A stretch of 64,000 bases of DNA, taken from Chitinophagales bacterium. Lineage in GTDB: Bacteria > Bacteroidota > Bacteroidia > Chitinophagales > CAIOSU01. Position numbers and translations under genes: made by a program. Below, one piece after another: positions 13,617-64,000 of the stretch. The notes beneath the pieces were generated by a model. That model made no database searches and was not told the origin of the DNA. It saw nothing but the letters and a program-made list of their open reading frames with translations. How positions within the stretch are numbered: the stretch's first letter is position 1; the number at the start of each line of letters is the position of its first letter. The stretch spans positions 124,001 through 188,000 of the forward strand of contig BPHB01000001.1 in the NCBI GenBank assembly GCA_026003335.1. The letters are read 5' to 3'.

Positions 13617-15011
13617 TTATTTCACCCGCATGATCCAGACCACGGTCATGTTGCCGGGATAGGTTTCCAAGCCTCTGTTGCGCATCCGCAGCCCATAATA
13701 CAGCCAATATCGGTTATCCATCTTTGTCTTCAAAACACAACTAAGTGCCATCCAGAGGCAGGGGGTAGGTGCTGCAGCAGCTCTGAAAGCTTGTTTCGTA
13801 GTCAAAATCCTTCAACGTATTGGTTTGATCAGCAGAAATAATACCGCTTACAGAGAAGCCGCGCAGGAACAGACCTGCAGATGAGAGAGAGCCGGCTTCA
13901 GTAGTGAAGGTTGCATTTAGAGCTGGCAAAGTAAGACCGTCATAAGGCGATTCCGGATCGTTAAGTACCTGACCGTTGCATTCAACCCATCCCCAGGGTA
14001 AGGATGGGGTTCCGGTCATGGATTTATGAAATGCTTGAATGGTCCCGATAGGTACTGCACCTACCTCCAGCCACCGTTGCCCGTTGTAATACATTTTTAC
14101 ACCTGCAGTAATATCAAAGACTTCCAGTCCCGTAGCCGGTATGCTGATAGCAAGGCGTTGAGAGGAGGTCATGCGGGGAATCAGTAGTCCGGCATTTGCT
14201 GAGCTGATATCCAGGATAGCGCTCGGATGAGGTGCAGGTGTCCCTATACCGATATGGCCGTGTTACCATTATACATATCGTTGCCGGCAATGATCCAGTC
14301 AGAATCCGTGCCCGGAGTGGATAGAATAACGCTATTACCTCCTGAAATAAGCAGAGTATTTCCCAGCAGAAATAATTGCTGTAATTCATTCGTAGGATCA
14401 GAATCTGCATCATTTACTCCATCCTGCAGCGGGCTCAGGTCAACAGTATTTCCGTTTTCTATGGATAAAAGCGTACCTGTAAGGGTTAGTTGCTGATTAT
14501 CATCACTGGTTGGGAGCTGAATGAAATTGCCTTTGCTGATAAACAAAGTATCCCCTGAGATGCTCAATGTTTATAGCTCATCGGTTGAATCCTCAACCGC
14601 ACCGGAGGCATTCAGAGCCGAACCGGCAAAGAAGGCATAGGGTACTGAGAGGAGCTCTGAAATACCCATCGGTGCGTAATTACTACCCCCTGCAGGGTCC
14701 AGCTCTACCTTGAGCCATTTTTTACCGGTTGCCCAGGATATGGCGGTGAAGTCACCCATAAGGGATAAGCCTCTGCCTATTTCAATGCTGAAAAGTCCAT
14801 AGGCATTGGTGCCCTCTTTATGTATTTCAGAGTAAACAGACTGTCCCCCTGCGGCACTGTCCAAAATACTTACCCGGATGCTGATTTGCTGATTGGTGAG
14901 GATATCTCCGGATTCATTGCGTGCTACAGCCTGATATTTTATTCCTTGAGGTATCTGGGCTGTCACCCAGCCGGCAATGAACATCCACCAGGCAATTAAA
15001 ACAGGTTTCAT
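13617..15011 (-). pseudogene. Broken phage-tail-collar-type surface protein gene, interrupted by a CRISPR repeat
   Basis: This was a secreted Bacteroidota protein. It has a signal peptide, an N-terminal region with QGIKYQAVARNESG and KKWLKVELDP, a central run of DADSDPTNELQQL-type repeats, and a C-terminal tail-collar domain (IGTIQAFHKS, GWVECNGQ, LPALNATF, FLRGF) ending NMTVVWIMRVK. Three lesions break it. First, a TAA at 14571-14573 stands where DELQTLSI would need CAA. Second, near 14246 the frame shifts by loss of one or four bases, between NGNTAISV and GTPAPHPSAIL. Third, a 37-bp insertion at 13706-13742, consisting of a CRISPR repeat plus one base, introduces a stop. Removing that insert gives PLDGT joined to WLYYGLRMRN in one frame. 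The intact length would be about 460 residues. Confidence 0.85.
13706..13741 (-). repeat. Solitary CRISPR repeat, 49 kb from the array
   Basis: The 36 bases match the array repeat at 62746 onward in 35 of 36 positions. The single difference is A for C at 13735 on the plus strand, which is G-to-T at repeat position 7 in crRNA sense. There is no second repeat and no spacer-repeat periodicity around it. In crRNA sense it lies on the minus strand, the same sense as the interrupted pseudogene. With one extra base (13742) it accounts exactly for a frame-breaking 37-bp insertion. TT dinucleotides flank the insert, so its exact ends are ambiguous by two bases. Confidence 0.95.
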
Positions 15012-56375: not shown

Positions 56376-56511
56376 GTCTCTGAAAGCCGCAAAGATAAGC
56401 ACCTGTCAGCGGAGTACATACCGTTTGGACTTTTCACCTCTTTCATGCGCGGGGAGCAACACTTCAGGCAATGTAAACCACGATGATGCGCCTGTCTGCA
56501 GCGGGCACATT

Positions 56512-56605
56512 AAAAAAGCCCCACCGAAGCGGGGCTTAAGGCTTTTCACCTTCGGCACAAAGGCCTTATTGTGATAAGAAGATAAAGATGGATAAATCTT
56601 CTGAT
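56512..56605 (-). ncRNA. tracrRNA of the type II-C system (predicted)
   Basis: On the minus strand, bases ~56597-56569 are complementary to the array repeat in crRNA sense. From crRNA position 2 to 28 the pairing is continuous except for U-U mismatches at 9-10, a C-A mismatch at 16 and one G-U wobble at 7. The pairing part is followed by CACAATAAGGC, a nexus-like segment of type II-C tracrRNAs, then a hairpin (AAGGCC... with paired CCTT), and a perfect terminator hairpin with a UUCG loop (56516-56537), ending in a T run at 56512-56517. A -33/-7 promoter (TTG at 56636-56638, TACCTTCG at 56608-56615, 20-base spacing) places the start near 56602. It diverges from cas9. Confidence 0.85.
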
Positions 56606-56607
56606 CC

Positions 56608-56685: not shown

Positions 56686-59600
56686 ATGAGCAAAATTCTT
56701 GGATTGGATCTGGGAACAAACAGCATTGGGTGGGCAGTGGTGGAGAAGGATGGCAGTGAACTGAGGATGCATGAAGCCAATGGTACGCCAACAAAGGGTG
56801 TTGTGATTTTTCCGGAAGGAGTAAAAATTGAAAAAGGCACAGAAAAATCAAGAGCAGCCGAACGTACCGCTTTTAGGAGTGCAAGGAGATTAAAATTCAG
56901 GCGTAAGCTTAGAAAATATGAAACACTAAAGGTTCTTGCTGAGTATGCACTATGTCCATTAACGGTGGAAGAGGTTGAGGCATGGAGAAAGTCCGGATTT
57001 ACCAAATATCCTGAAAACGAAGTTTTCCGGGATTGGCTGCGCACAAACGAGGAAGGGAATAAGAATCCCTATTTCTTTCGCGACAAGTTTTCACGGCAGA
57101 AATGTGATTGGGAAGGGAATCAGGCGGTTGCTTTTGAATTGGGCAGGGCTTTTTATCATCTTGCGCAACGCAGAGGATTTAAAAGCAACCGCCTGGAGCA
57201 GTCGGATGAAACTATGATTTCCGCAATAAAGGATCAAATACAGGATGCTCTGCAGGAAGCAGAAAACTCTAATGCCCTTTATCAAAGGCTACAGGATTTG
57301 TTTGAAGAATATGATTTTGAAAACCGCACTAAAGATGACCTGAATGCTACCGAACAAAAGCTCAAAACGATATGGAACTACATAACAAAAGTCTTGACCA
57401 ACAAGATAAAGGGCAAGGATTATTCAAAGTTTGATGCGGCTAAAAAGGAGATTGACAGATATATCAACCGTCCGGAAAATCTTGGAACGGTGGAAGGGGG
57501 AATCAAAGAGCTTTCGGATAAAATGGAGGCAGCCGGATGCAAAACCCTCGGACAATATTTCTGGCTTTTATACCAACAGGACCGCAATAATCCCAACAAT
57601 AAAATCAGAACCAACTACACTGCCAGGGAAGAGCATTATGAAGCAGAGTTTGATACAATCTGCAAAGTGCAGCAAATACCTGAAAAGTTAAAGACAGCTT
57701 TGTACAAAGCTATTTTCTTTCAACGGCCATTGAGGTCGCAAAAGGGACTGGTAGGCAAATGCACTTTTGAAAGGGCAAAACCGCGATGCCCTGTTTCACG
57801 ACCCGAGTTTGAGGAATTCAGGATGTGGTCGTTTATGAATAACATCAAAATAAAAACCCCAGGTGACGAACGGCTGCGGCCTCTGACTCAGACCGAGAAA
57901 GACCTGATCATTCCCAAATTTTACCGCCAAAAACCCACCTTCAAATTTGAAGAGCTGGTTAAAGCTCTCAACCCTAAAGCAAATTTTGTTTACTACAAAG
58001 ACCATGAAGCGAAAGATGCGGAGTATCTGGTGAACTATAAACTGAATACCACCGTCAGCGGCTGCCCGGTTTCAGCAGCACTGAAGAGCCTGATGGGTGA
58101 CGACTGGAAAACCAAGGTATATACTTATCAAACCGTAAATGCCAAAGGTGAATCCGTTCAACGCAAGGCTGACTATAGAGATTTGTGGCATGTGCTTTTC
58201 ACATTTGATGATGAAAAAAAACTAAAAGCTTTTGCCTCTGAGAAGCTTAAAATGGATGAGGCTTCGGCTAGAAAGTTCACCAAAATCTTCTTATCACAAG
58301 GTTACGCAAACCTTAGCCTCAAGGCTATTAAAAATATACTGCCCTGGCTGAAAAAGGGTTTGATTTATTCCCATGCCGTTTTTATGGCAAACATGCATAA
58401 GGTAGTGGATAAATCCGTTTGGGAAAACCCCAATAGCCGTGAGCTGATTGAAAAAGAAATAGGTGCCATTATTGAAAACCACACCGATGAAACACGAATA
58501 GCAAATGCCATCAACGGACTCATCAGAAGATACCGTGATGAAAATGCACACTACTCAAAAGAAGCTGAGCCTGCATTCAAATGTGACCTTGAAAGTAAGC
58601 TTAAAGCTATTTATGGGGCAAAGACATGGCAGGAAAAGGCAGATAAAGACATTTTGCTTTCCGATGCATTTGAACTTTTGAAAAAGCACCTGAAAAAAAT
58701 TGACAGCAAAGATGCTTTCGTAAAAGTGAAACGTATTGACGAGCGCGTCATTGAATTCCTGTGCGATAACAACCTGATAAGCGATGAAAACCAGCTGAAA
58801 AATCTTTACCACCCATCCGATCTTGAAGGTTTTAAACCGGAAATAGCCAAGAACAAGAACGGTGATCCTGTGATTGTGAACGGTAAGCAGTTGAAAATTC
58901 TTCCCCTTCCCAAAACCGCATCCATCAAAAACCCGGTGCTTATGCGGGCGATGCATCAACTCCGCAAGCTGATTAATCAACTTTTGCTTGACGGTGTGAT
59001 TGATGATCAAACCCGCGTGCATATTGAATTAGCTCGTGAAGTCAATGACGCCAACAAACGTGCGGCATGGAAAACCTGGCAGGATAATCTACGCGACAGG
59101 CGCGAAAAAGCCGTGAAGGAAATCAAGGACCTTTACAAGAAAGAATGCGGTAAAGAAATTGAGCCTGCGGAAGACGACATTACCCGCTACCTGCTTTGGG
59201 TAGAACAAGACAAGCGCGAAATCTATGAGCCGGAAGGCAGAAATATCAGTATCTGTGACATTATAGGGCCTGACCCGAAGTATGATATTGAGCATACTAT
59301 TCCGCGCAGCCTCTCCTGGGACAACTCCATGATGAATAAAACGCTTTGCTCAAAAAAATTCAATCGCGAAGTAAAAAGAAATCAGATTCCGGCTCAACTA
59401 CCCAATCACGCTGACATCCTGCAGCGTATTGAATCCTGGAAGAAGGATAAATATCTTAAACTTGATCAGGAGATTAAAAAAATCAATGCCAGCCATATCC
59501 CTGACAAAGCCACTAAAGACAAGCTTATCAGAAAACGACATGTGCTCAGATTTAAATACGAATACTGGAAGGGGAAGTATGACCGCTTTATCATGAAAGA

Positions 59601-61188
59601 GGTGCCTGAAGGTTTTAAAAATAGCCAGATCGTGGATACGGGCCTGATTACACGGTTTGCCAAAAACTATTTAAGTTGTCTTTTCAGAACTCCCAGCGAC
59701 AATAGCAATGTGATGGTGGTTAATGGACAAATTGTTGCGGAATTTCGGAAAGCATGGGGCTTGCAGGACGAATATGAGAAAAAGTCACGCGCTAATCATG
59801 TCCACCATTGCATGGACGCCTTAACCATTGCCTGCATGACTAAGGACAAATATGATGCTTTTGTGGAACAATGGCGCAAAGCGGAAGAAGAGGGTAAATA
59901 TGATGTGAAAACCAGAATCAAAATTCCGAAGCCCTGGGAAACTTTTACCGAAGATGTAAAGAACCTGGAAAACGAAGTGCTGATTGTATATGCAAGTAAA
60001 GACAATGTGCCTAAACAAACCAAACGAAAGGACAGAAAACGCGGAAAAATTGTCTATGCGCTTATGACAAAGCTGCCGGAAGAAATGCAAAACAAAACAG
60101 AAGGAGTACACTATTTCAAAGTCGTCCAAAATGGACAAACGCTCTATAAAGTCCCCAGATATCTTAAAGGCGACACCGTGAGAGGGTCATTGCATCAGGA
60201 TACTTTTTATGGCGCAATAAAAAAAACAGGAGAAGAGGATGTGCAATATGTTGTGCGGAAAAAACTTGCAGATCTTAAAGATGGCGACTTGGATAAAATT
60301 GTTGATCCCCGGATACGTGAAATTGCTAAAGCAGGGAGGGAAAAGGAAAAACAGCTGAAAAAAGAAATGGAAGCTCTGAAGAACAAATTGAAAAAAGATG
60401 ATGAGGAATCGGAGTCAGAGATAAACGCCAAAATTCAGGCTATCCAACATAGCATAGACCACGAATTGTATCGCATTACGCCTAAAAACGGAAAAACGCA
60501 GTATGTGCCTATCCGAAAGGTGCGCATCAAAGCGCACATTACAGAACCGCTGCCTGATTTTAAACTGCACCGCGATGTAAAGAAACATCCTGACGGCTCT
60601 GAAAAATATCCCTATAAAAAGTGGATTTATGTGCAGAATGATGAAAACTATGGCCTCGTATTCTTTGAAAACGCTGACAGAACAAAACGCTCCGCGCAAA
60701 TCATCAAAATGATTGACGCGGCAAAATATTTTAAAGCCAGCAACAAAGAATATCGTAGAGAGCACCCCCTCGTGGAACCCCAAAAGGGTATGAAAATTAG
60801 AGGCATCCTGAAACCGGGCACCATGGTGCTGTTTTACAAAGAACATCCCGAAGAGTTATGGGAACTAACCCAGGTTGATTTGATAAAAAGATTGTATTTC
60901 GTGCGAAAAACGGGTAAGGATGGCCGTGTGACTTTTCAATTTCATCAGGAAGCCAGAAATGATGAGCAATTAAAGGAAGATTATATAAAGCAATATGGCA
61001 AGGAACCTCCAAAATCATTAACCAATGGTGAAAGCTCCATTGATTTCGCCAGGCTGCCTGTGCCCAGGTTGCGTCTTAGCCCGGTAAATATGCGCTTGCT
61101 GATACAGGGTGTGGATTTCAGAATCACTCCCACCGGCAAAATAGAAAAAATAGAGTCGCGGCAAATCATACAGGCAAACGAAAAATAA
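56686..61188 (+). CDS. cas9: Type II-C CRISPR-associated endonuclease Cas9, long form
   Basis: A 1500-residue Cas9, the RNA-guided nuclease of the system. RuvC-I is ILGLDLGTNSIGWAVVE with Asp8; the arginine-rich bridge helix follows near residues 60-85 (SRAAERTAFRSARRLKFRRK). RuvC-II is VHIELAREVN with Glu781; HNH is YDIEHTIPRSLSW with His870 and Asn893 (KKFNRE); RuvC-III is VHHCMDALTIA with His1041 and Asp1044. All catalytic residues are intact. About residues 1205-1265, after RuvC-III, form a highly charged coiled-coil-like segment (KEKQLKKEMEALKNKLKKDD). Long II-C Cas9 proteins near 1500 residues are known in Bacteroidota. Next to it lie only cas1 and cas2, with no csn2 or cas4, which defines II-C. 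Confidence 0.97.
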   Translation: MSKILGLDLGTNSIGWAVVEKDGSELRMHEANGTPTKGVVIFPEGVKIEKGTEKSRAAERTAFRSARRLKFRRKLRKYETLKVLAEYALCPLTVEEVEAWRKSGFTKYPENEVFRDWLRTNEEGNKNPYFFRDKFSRQKCDWEGNQAVAFELGRAFYHLAQRRGFKSNRLEQSDETMISAIKDQIQDALQEAENSNALYQRLQDLFEEYDFENRTKDDLNATEQKLKTIWNYITKVLTNKIKGKDYSKFDAAKKEIDRYINRPENLGTVEGGIKELSDKMEAAGCKTLGQYFWLLYQQDRNNPNNKIRTNYTAREEHYEAEFDTICKVQQIPEKLKTALYKAIFFQRPLRSQKGLVGKCTFERAKPRCPVSRPEFEEFRMWSFMNNIKIKTPGDERLRPLTQTEKDLIIPKFYRQKPTFKFEELVKALNPKANFVYYKDHEAKDAEYLVNYKLNTTVSGCPVSAALKSLMGDDWKTKVYTYQTVNAKGESVQRKADYRDLWHVLFTFDDEKKLKAFASEKLKMDEASARKFTKIFLSQGYANLSLKAIKNILPWLKKGLIYSHAVFMANMHKVVDKSVWENPNSRELIEKEIGAIIENHTDETRIANAINGLIRRYRDENAHYSKEAEPAFKCDLESKLKAIYGAKTWQEKADKDILLSDAFELLKKHLKKIDSKDAFVKVKRIDERVIEFLCDNNLISDENQLKNLYHPSDLEGFKPEIAKNKNGDPVIVNGKQLKILPLPKTASIKNPVLMRAMHQLRKLINQLLLDGVIDDQTRVHIELAREVNDANKRAAWKTWQDNLRDRREKAVKEIKDLYKKECGKEIEPAEDDITRYLLWVEQDKREIYEPEGRNISICDIIGPDPKYDIEHTIPRSLSWDNSMMNKTLCSKKFNREVKRNQIPAQLPNHADILQRIESWKKDKYLKLDQEIKKINASHIPDKATKDKLIRKRHVLRFKYEYWKGKYDRFIMKEVPEGFKNSQIVDTGLITRFAKNYLSCLFRTPSDNSNVMVVNGQIVAEFRKAWGLQDEYEKKSRANHVHHCMDALTIACMTKDKYDAFVEQWRKAEEEGKYDVKTRIKIPKPWETFTEDVKNLENEVLIVYASKDNVPKQTKRKDRKRGKIVYALMTKLPEEMQNKTEGVHYFKVVQNGQTLYKVPRYLKGDTVRGSLHQDTFYGAIKKTGEEDVQYVVRKKLADLKDGDLDKIVDPRIREIAKAGREKEKQLKKEMEALKNKLKKDDEESESEINAKIQAIQHSIDHELYRITPKNGKTQYVPIRKVRIKAHITEPLPDFKLHRDVKKHPDGSEKYPYKKWIYVQNDENYGLVFFENADRTKRSAQIIKMIDAAKYFKASNKEYRREHPLVEPQKGMKIRGILKPGTMVLFYKEHPEELWELTQVDLIKRLYFVRKTGKDGRVTFQFHQEARNDEQLKEDYIKQYGKEPPKSLTNGESSIDFARLPVPRLRLSPVNMRLLIQGVDFRITPTGKIEKIESRQIIQANEK

Positions 61189-61335: not shown

Positions 61336-62256
61336 ATGCTCAAGCGTACCCTGGTCATTAGCAGCCCGCACCATCTCAGCGTGCGCAACAAACAACTGAT
61401 GCTTGACAACAAAGACACGGGCGAGCAGAATCAGGCGCCCATTGAAGATCTTGGTTGCCTCCTCCTTGACCAGCAAGGCATCACCCTCACACAGGCAGCC
61501 ATTTCGGAGCTCACCCTTCATAACGTATCAGTAATATTTTGCGATGAAAAGCATCTGCCAGTGTCCATGCTGCTGCCGCTGGAGGGGCATTACCTGCCCA
61601 ACCAGCGATTAAGGCAGCAACTGGATGCCGGTGAGCCGCTGCGCAAACAGCTCTGGCAGCAAACCGTGAAAGCCAAGCTGCGCAACCAGGCTGCCCTGCT
61701 GGACAGCATCGGCAAAAGTGGCGAACCGCTCAGAAGATGGGCAACACGCGTGCGTAGCGGTGATACCACCAACGTGGAAGGCTTGGCCGCCCGCTACTAC
61801 TGGCGCAACCTCTTTGGCGAGGCCTTCAAACGCGACCGCTATGGCGAACCGCCTAATCAGCTGCTCAACTACGGCTATGCTATCCTGCGTGCAGCGGCCG
61901 CCCGCTCGTTGGTTGCTTCCGGCCTACTCCCCACCCTCGGCATCCATCACCATAATAAATACAATGCCTTTTGCCTGGCTGATGATATCATGGAGCCATT
62001 TAGACCATTTGTTGACCGGGTGGTATGGGAGCGTATCCGGCAGGGCGCTGCTGGGGATATCACCCGCGAAGATAAAACGGCTTTGCTGGAAGTGCTCAAT
62101 ACAGACGTGTGGTGGGGAAAGGAGAGAAGCCTCCTGGCAACTGCCCTGGGCACGGTAAGCGCCCATCTTGCCGCTTGCTTTGAAGGAACCCGGCAAAGCC
62201 TGAAATATCCCGAAATGAAGGTGATGAAGGAAAACGGACAGGTACTGCGGAGATAA
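61336..62256 (+). CDS. cas1: CRISPR-associated integrase Cas1 (type II)
   Basis: A 306-residue Cas1, the integrase subunit that with Cas2 inserts new spacers. The catalytic metal ligands are Glu148 in NVEGLAARYYW, the His in GIHHHNKYNAF (residues 204-206), and the Asp/Glu of ADDIMEPFRP (about 216-220). The N-terminal beta domain begins TLVISSPHHLSVRNKQLML. Base composition is clearly richer in G+C than cas9 next to it: sampled 60-base blocks hold 33-37 G/C here against 20-24 in cas9. It starts 147 bases after cas9 and 29 bases before cas2. Confidence 0.95.
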   Translation: MLKRTLVISSPHHLSVRNKQLMLDNKDTGEQNQAPIEDLGCLLLDQQGITLTQAAISELTLHNVSVIFCDEKHLPVSMLLPLEGHYLPNQRLRQQLDAGEPLRKQLWQQTVKAKLRNQAALLDSIGKSGEPLRRWATRVRSGDTTNVEGLAARYYWRNLFGEAFKRDRYGEPPNQLLNYGYAILRAAAARSLVASGLLPTLGIHHHNKYNAFCLADDIMEPFRPFVDRVVWERIRQGAAGDITREDKTALLEVLNTDVWWGKERSLLATALGTVSAHLAACFEGTRQSLKYPEMKVMKENGQVLRR

Positions 62257-62285: not shown

Positions 62286-62633
62286 ATGGTAAAAAATCAT
62301 TTCTCGCGCCTTAGTGCCTATCGCGTTATGTGGCTCTTTGTGATTTTTGATTTACCCACTGAAACCAAAGCCGACCGCAAAGCCTATGCGGAATTCCGGA
62401 AAAAACTTCAGCGTCAGGGTTTTACCATGATGCAGTATTCCGTTTATATTCGCCATTGTGCCGGCAGCGAAGCTGCGGAAACATACATCAAAAAAGTAAA
62501 AAGCTTTATTCCGGCTAAAGGGCATGTAAGCATTGTACAGATTACAGACAGGCAATTTGGCAATATCGTGAATTTCTGGGGGAGCCAACCAGCACCCCTC
62601 CCCAAGGCACCTAAGCAACTGGAATTTTTTTAG
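62286..62633 (+). CDS. cas2: CRISPR-associated protein Cas2 (type II)
   Basis: A 115-residue Cas2, which forms the Cas1-Cas2 adaptation complex. The ferredoxin-like core has MWLFVIFDLPTETKADRKAY (residues 15-34) with the conserved FDLP, QGFTMMQYSVYIRHCAGSE and GHVSIVQITDRQFGNIV. An internal ATG at residue 15 is a possible alternative start, but the upstream part (SRLSAYRVM) is typical of this Cas2 group and I keep the first ATG. Its stop is 112 bases before the array. Confidence 0.94.
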   Translation: MVKNHFSRLSAYRVMWLFVIFDLPTETKADRKAYAEFRKKLQRQGFTMMQYSVYIRHCAGSEAAETYIKKVKSFIPAKGHVSIVQITDRQFGNIVNFWGSQPAPLPKAPKQLEFF

Positions 62634-62745: not shown

Positions 62746-64000
62746 AATATCGGTTATCCATCTTTGTCTTCAAACCACAACACGTCCTCACCGCCGGCGC
62801 TATGCAAATATCGGTTATCCATCTTTGTCTTCAAACCACAACTTGCATGCATCGAGACCTTGTCTGTAATATCGGTTATCCATCTTTGTCTTCAAACCAC
62901 AACGACGCAAGCATGACTGTTAATATTAGTAGAATATCGGTTATCCATCTTTGTCTTCAAACCACAACTATTGCCCTGAACAATTGGATTCAAACAAAAA
63001 TATCGGTTATCCATCTTTGTCTTCAAACCACAACTATCCGTGTGGTACATGTCCCACTGCTTTGAATATCGGTTATCCATCTTTGTCTTCAAACCACAAC
63101 TCTGGAACACCGCAAGCCTTATCTTATCAGAATATCGGTTATCCATCTTTGTCTTCAAACCACAACAAAGCGAAGATAGCGATTACCTAAAGCAGAATAT
63201 CGGTTATCCATCTTTGTCTTCAAACCACAACTCGGGAGTAAAATAATAATCAATCTTTTGCAATATCGGTTATCCATCTTTGTCTTCAAACCACAACCCT
63301 GTTAGTAAACGCATCAATCGCAGGTTGAAATATCGGTTATCCATCTTTGTCTTCAAACCACAACCTATCCAATAGGATTAACGCTTACACCAACAATATC
63401 GGTTATCCATCTTTGTCTTCAAACCACAACGATAATTGGGAAGAGATGAAAGAATTTTTTAATATCGGTTATCCATCTTTGTCTTCAAACCACAACCGTT
63501 ATAAATCTTTTTTGCTAACGTGAGCGAATATCGGTTATCCATCTTTGTCTTCAAACCACAACTGCAGAAAAAGTTCTACGCGATACCGGCTGAATATCGG
63601 TTATCCATCTTTGTCTTCAAACCACAACTAAGGGGATATGCCGCCGCTCTCCTGCCAGAATATCGGTTATCCATCTTTGTCTTCAAACCACAACACCCGG
63701 CGTGAAGCCCTGACCGCACAGGAAAATATCGGTTATCCATCTTTGTCTTCAAACCACAACAGGATGCTGGCATTGGTGGAACTGTTGTGGAATATCGGTT
63801 ATCCATCTTTGTCTTCAAACCACAACACCGTGTGTGCACCGGCGCTGACACGATTGAATATCGGTTATCCATCTTTGTCTTCAAACCACAACTGTGATAA
63901 GATTTTCGAGTTCAGAGATGGTAATATCGGTTATCCATCTTTGTCTTCAAACCACAACCGCCCGATGCTATCGCTACGCCAATACTCAAATATCGGTTAT
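62746..64000 (-). CRISPR. Type II-C CRISPR array, truncated by the window edge
   Basis: Nineteen full 36-base repeats and a twentieth partial one (63989-64000), with 19 spacers. In plus-strand sense the repeat starts AATATCGG and ends CCACAAC; in crRNA sense it starts GTTGTGG and ends CGATATT. All 19 full repeats are identical. Spacers are mostly 30 bases; two are 29, one is 31, and the two next to cas2 (62782-62806 and 62843-62867) are only 25. Complementarity with the tracrRNA shows that the minus strand is the crRNA strand, so the array is read toward cas2, the leader is beyond 64000, and the cas2 end holds the oldest spacers. No spacer was seen to match the solitary repeat's host gene. 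Confidence 0.99.

Follow-up and report, generated by a model that had tools for sequence, protein, structure and literature searches.

How did a single CRISPR repeat come to lie inside a chromosomal gene, 49 kb away from the array whose repeat it matches? The window, i.e., the whole stretch of 64,000 nt that was analysed, corresponds to C1:124001-188000, part of a 2.08 Mb contig in a genome of 3.9 Mb (24 contigs). The features at the site are:

13706..13741, minus strand: solitary full-length type II-C CRISPR repeat; crRNA sense on the minus strand, GTTGTGTTTTGAAGACAAAGATGGATAACCGATATT
13742..13742, minus strand: extra base A between ACT-T of the gene and the repeat
13617..15011, minus strand: broken collar-like surface-protein gene, with a signal-peptide-like start at 15011 and its end at 13617

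The sequence at 13706-13741 (AATATCGGTTATCCATCTTTGTCTTCAAAACACAAC) matches the array repeat over its full length at 35 of 36 positions, with exact borders. The original prediction was right in this identity and in the distance of 49 kb; the repeat itself occupies 13706-13741, and 13742 is the extra base. The one mismatch is at crRNA-sense position 7, and every array repeat is without this change. The number of 35/36 matches expected by chance in the genome is about 2e-13; a chance match cannot be the explanation and is excluded. When the whole genome is searched with up to 3 mismatches, 97 copies of the repeat are found, and outside of the contiguous array there are only 13706-13741 and C1:194165-194200. 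A search of the whole genome with the core 21-mer (2 mismatches) gives 96 matches, made up of 94 in the array, the solitary copy, and the terminal repeat, and finds no partial copies elsewhere. A repeat is regarded as solitary when no other or partial repeat lies within 100 bp, and here there is no remnant within 300 bp. The sequence at 13706-13741 is a real, array-derived copy.

The source of the repeat is the CRISPR-Cas locus at the other end of the window:

56510..56607, minus strand: candidate tracrRNA upstream of cas9, with an anti-repeat followed by a GC hairpin and a T run (by eye)
56686..61188, plus strand: cas9 (1500 aa; HMM)
61336..62256, plus strand: cas1, type II (HMM; the type II cas1 model is best)
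62286..62633, plus strand: cas2 (HMM)
62746..64000, minus strand: start of the CRISPR array, which runs past the window end to C1:192941; next come 1223 bp of phage DNA and then the terminal repeat C1:194165-194200

The array begins 49 kb from the solitary repeat, directly after cas9-cas1-cas2. The last gene before the array is cas2, and the operon has neither csn2 nor cas4. From this operon content, the system is type II-C. The contiguous array, which ends at C1:192941, consists of 94 perfect repeats and one with 3 mismatches. The copy at C1:194165-194200 has a substitution at its 3' end and looks like the array's own terminal repeat. Terminal repeats are often substituted at the 3' end (PMC8047081), and in G003, a genome of the same family and the nearest relative with a similar locus, the last repeat is changed at the same end. 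The array repeat of G003 (AATATCGTTAATCCATTTTTGTCATCAAACTACAGC) is a clear homologue of the repeat studied here. The solitary repeat therefore has CRISPR ancestry, and the copying ran from array to gene. The reverse direction, with the gene as origin of the repeat, is ruled out by the same homologous repeat.

Several other properties of the arrays were observed. The two cas2-proximal spacers (window 62782-62867) are 25 nt long, the usual length being 29-30 nt. Two pairs of spacers are identical duplicates (C1:189473/189934 and 190000/190065), and more near-identical pairs exist along the array. About 40 array spacers compared with phage records, and three compared with IMG/VR, gave no match. 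Beyond the terminal repeat, at L033:6302-6700, is a gene fragment that resembles SBBP-type repeat proteins (by eye) and contains stops and a frameshift. The same genome has a second type II array at C2:547375-550512 (within L149, C2:536500-556499), whose 49 repeats are identical to each other but differ in sequence from the repeat studied here; two in-frame TAA codons lie in its cas1 match.

The gene that carries the repeat encodes a collar-like C-terminal domain, recognised by a weak match to the PHROG tail collar fiber. It has three disabling changes: a stop at 14571-14573, a frameshift near 14250, and an immediate stop (TAG) at the repeat, the last as originally predicted. The first two do not figure in the original prediction, and they make the gene a pseudogene whether the repeat is there or not. 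Housekeeping genes nearby, lepA and folD among them, are intact, and poor sequence quality is therefore not an obvious cause of the lesions.

Was the repeat added to this gene, or did it take the place of a part of it? It had been proposed that one repeat plus one base was inserted precisely, and that deletion of 37 nt restores an ending like that of the family. The deletion does restore the frame, which then ends in WIMRVK, and it keeps the conserved G-S/T-W motif as G-T-W; a frame is restored by chance in 1 of 3 cases. The joined sequence, however, is not confirmed as the ancestral state, since near homologues are longer by 7-12 residues. The comparison with homologues that had been suggested for finding the empty site gave no such site at the nucleotide level: among 40 relatives, no DNA-level homology of the gene extends beyond about 50 bases. 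Protein homologues with a full C-terminus were therefore compared, taken from related genomes and public contigs, of which the nearest are about 50% identical. The distance from FLRG to the C-terminus is 78 residues in L065 and L072, 79 in L066 and L078, 75 in L067 and L095, 77 in L098, and 74 in L081. In the gene studied here it is 67 residues without the 37 nt and about 79 with the repeat kept. The joined protein is thus 7-12 residues shorter than all near homologues, and the deficit is exactly at the interval of the repeat. Measured from DGT to GLR, the four nearest homologues span 54-57 nt, compared with 58 nt in the present gene when the repeat is counted and 21 nt when it is left out.

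Profiles of the near homologues give scores of 129.0-130.3 bits when the interval is deleted, 130.5-131.3 when it is masked, and 135.7-136.1 when the repeat is read through. Keeping the interval is thus better than deletion by 0.2 to 6.7 bits, a margin that varies with the coding chosen for the interval. The residues KMDNRYWL encoded by the repeat score about 5 bits better against the homologues than unknown residues do; this gain is put down to coincidence or to a small number of bases shared at the 3' border. Up to about one codon from each border, native gene sequence can be recognised, where PLDGT corresponds to P-D-N-G-S and W-L-x-x-G-L-R to Y-L-x-D-S-(F/L)-R of the homologues. By the homologue alignment, the extra base at 13742 may be native gene sequence. 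Homologue lengths and profile scores thus favour replacement over the precise insertion that had been claimed: judging from these protein comparisons, it is more likely that the repeat replaced about 32-35 nt of the gene than that it was inserted cleanly. A naturally short loop with a clean insertion is possible, since the nearest homologues are only about 50% identical, a more distant homologue (L073) is as short as the deleted version (67), and the G-T-W motif is kept.

The borders of the repeat and the gene sequence on both sides bear on how the replacement could have happened:

13742..13771, minus strand: 30 nt upstream of the repeat (crRNA sense); spacer S_A under a recombination model, matched by no current spacer
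13676..13705, minus strand: 30 nt downstream of the repeat (crRNA sense); spacer S_B under the same model, matched by no current spacer

Exactly one whole 36-nt repeat is present, with no spacer sequence at either edge. We give a probability of roughly 0.4 to the reading that array-templated repair or recombination, likeliest by way of spacer homology, put the repeat into the gene in place of about 32-35 nt. An array with the order S_A-R-S_B would exchange with a gene of the form P_A-x-P_B through homology of the spacers to their targets. The gene would then read P_A-R-P_B, and its repeat would stop exactly at the spacer borders. A one-sided variant would fit as well: invasion through S_A, copying of one repeat, and rejoining at a microhomology of a few bases. 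Recombination through flanking spacers would be expected to give exact borders, while random capture of a piece of the array would carry spacer ends. Under the model, the two hypothetical protospacers would have GAGGCTTG and GAATATGA on their PAM sides. When the 94 present spacers were compared with both flanks, the best match was 11 nt, at the level of chance, so that the required homology must be assumed to be lost. The matching spacers would have disappeared later from the array; their loss, like the spacer homology and the break itself, is inferred. Since the gene is chromosomal, such spacers would have been self-targeting. In addition, two suitably placed, array-adjacent spacers from one gene are needed, which is a strong requirement and counts against exchange.

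A product of seemingly reciprocal type is found at the far end of the array. Outside of the window, the last spacer slot is filled by 1,223 bp of contiguous phage DNA (L033:5043-6265; C1:192942-194164). This segment starts within a Mu F-like head gene, stops within a gpG-like gene and is bounded exactly by the two repeats. No second copy of it is found in the genome. In 14 further type II arrays surveyed in related genomes, no gap between near-intact repeats exceeds 100 bp (0/14); 159 bp past the end of one of these arrays is a repeat remnant with 9 mismatches. Both the solitary repeat and the phage-filled slot could come from spacer-homology recombination at two different targets, a link that we infer. 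The wider idea, that spacer-mediated exchange between array and target leaves a bare repeat in the target and target DNA as a giant spacer in the array, is speculative and rather unlikely.

Among other routes, a break or stalled fork at the gene may have copied one repeat by microhomology alone, with or without loss of gene sequence. This filler repair or template switch is rather unlikely, though it requires no lost spacers; the junction is ambiguous by two bases (TT), and a clean join gives a frame and keeps the homologue-like G-T-W motif. Random switching in an array with a period of 66 nt, however, is not expected to end exactly at repeat borders, and in its clean-insertion form the nearest homologues speak against an empty site. 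The same edges bear on a further possibility, that an ectopic array or array fragment collapsed to one repeat through repeat-repeat recombination. Such a collapse is a discussed outcome (PMC8047081), yet it should leave pieces of spacer at the edges, where gene sequence instead reaches to about one codon from the repeat, and no repeat remnants occur within 300 bp; we consider this origin improbable. Off-target spacer integration by Cas1-Cas2 is far less probable again. Although cas1 and cas2 are both present and open, their activity should give a spacer flanked by a target duplication of about repeat length, and would not copy an array repeat. Neither a spacer nor a duplication is seen, and direct repeats within 60 bp of the repeat do not exceed 5 bp. 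The structure largely refutes this explanation, in agreement with the original prediction that Cas1-Cas2 integration does not produce such an arrangement.

It is also improbable that the repeat is an assembly or binning artefact. CRISPR repeats can cause assembly misjoins, and a chimeric join could have passed through the repeat. The flanks, however, are two halves of one gene in the right order and spacing, the 2.08 Mb contig resolves an array of 95 repeats, and the solitary copy has its own mismatch that is found in no array repeat. The repeat could instead be a functional unit left by a mobile element, e.g., an RNA anti-CRISPR (Racr) or a crRNA-like regulator. Viruses and plasmids are known to carry solitary repeats that match the host subtype, in every CRISPR type but VI, and such units have been sought between genes, not inside them (PMC10651486). 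The mismatch leaves most of the anti-repeat pairing possible (by eye). Against a function, the repeat sits within a decaying chromosomal coding gene, there is no second partial repeat, and the 20-nt guide-like sequence next to it matches nothing else in the window; we regard a functional unit as another improbable origin. Array-templated replacement is the preferred reading.

The original prediction was that the repeat unit itself had moved. Its array origin is borne out by the homologous repeat of G003, and capture during break repair is the most plausible class of mechanism, while a single copy does not support the idea of a mobile unit. Other isolated copies had been suggested as a check; with up to 3 mismatches there are none in this genome beyond the terminal repeat and none in 60 relatives. 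The exact repeat is absent from GTDB contigs and IMG/VR. No solitary copy is found of the second array's repeat in the same genome, nor of the repeat in G003, the nearest relative with a homologous repeat. With neither dispersed copies nor presence and absence among relatives, a mobile repeat element is not warranted, and because the event is single the repeat should not be called mobile. If spacer-mediated exchange is true, it would offer an origin for some solitary repeats; the target may lose the PAM side of its protospacer and may escape cutting, independently of Cas1-Cas2, and arrays could take in long pieces of foreign DNA with no need for the adaptation machinery. If only chance filler repair took place, the repeat is a one-off curiosity in a pseudogene.

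Repeats outside of arrays are also found in known systems. CreTA has one or two ectopic repeats, often degenerate, by which Cascade is guided so that it represses a toxin RNA (PMC9458426). The likeness lies in repeats outside of an array in a bacterial chromosome, and the difference in a single near-perfect repeat, a Cas9 system, and no recognised toxin module. Ectopic spacer acquisition in type II systems (PMC7999890) likewise places adaptation products away from the leader end, but its spacer-repeat units are added inside the array, and no gene receives a bare repeat. The present case resembles terminal-repeat polymorphism and array rearrangement (PMC8047081) in the 3'-end substitution at C1:194165 and in the recombination of repeats with each other; they account neither for a repeat moved by 49 kb nor for 1.2 kb of phage DNA in the place of a spacer. 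Closest in form are the solitary repeat units (SRUs), mainly RNA anti-CRISPRs (Racr) of phages and plasmids, which were sought in intergenic regions and are often preceded by a promoter (PMC10651486). SRUs are carried intergenically by viruses, plasmids or other mobile elements, whereas the present copy lies in a broken chromosomal coding gene. Solitary repeat units are already known as a kind, and the present copy in a chromosomal pseudogene shares with them a single repeat of the host's own CRISPR subtype and no adjoining array.
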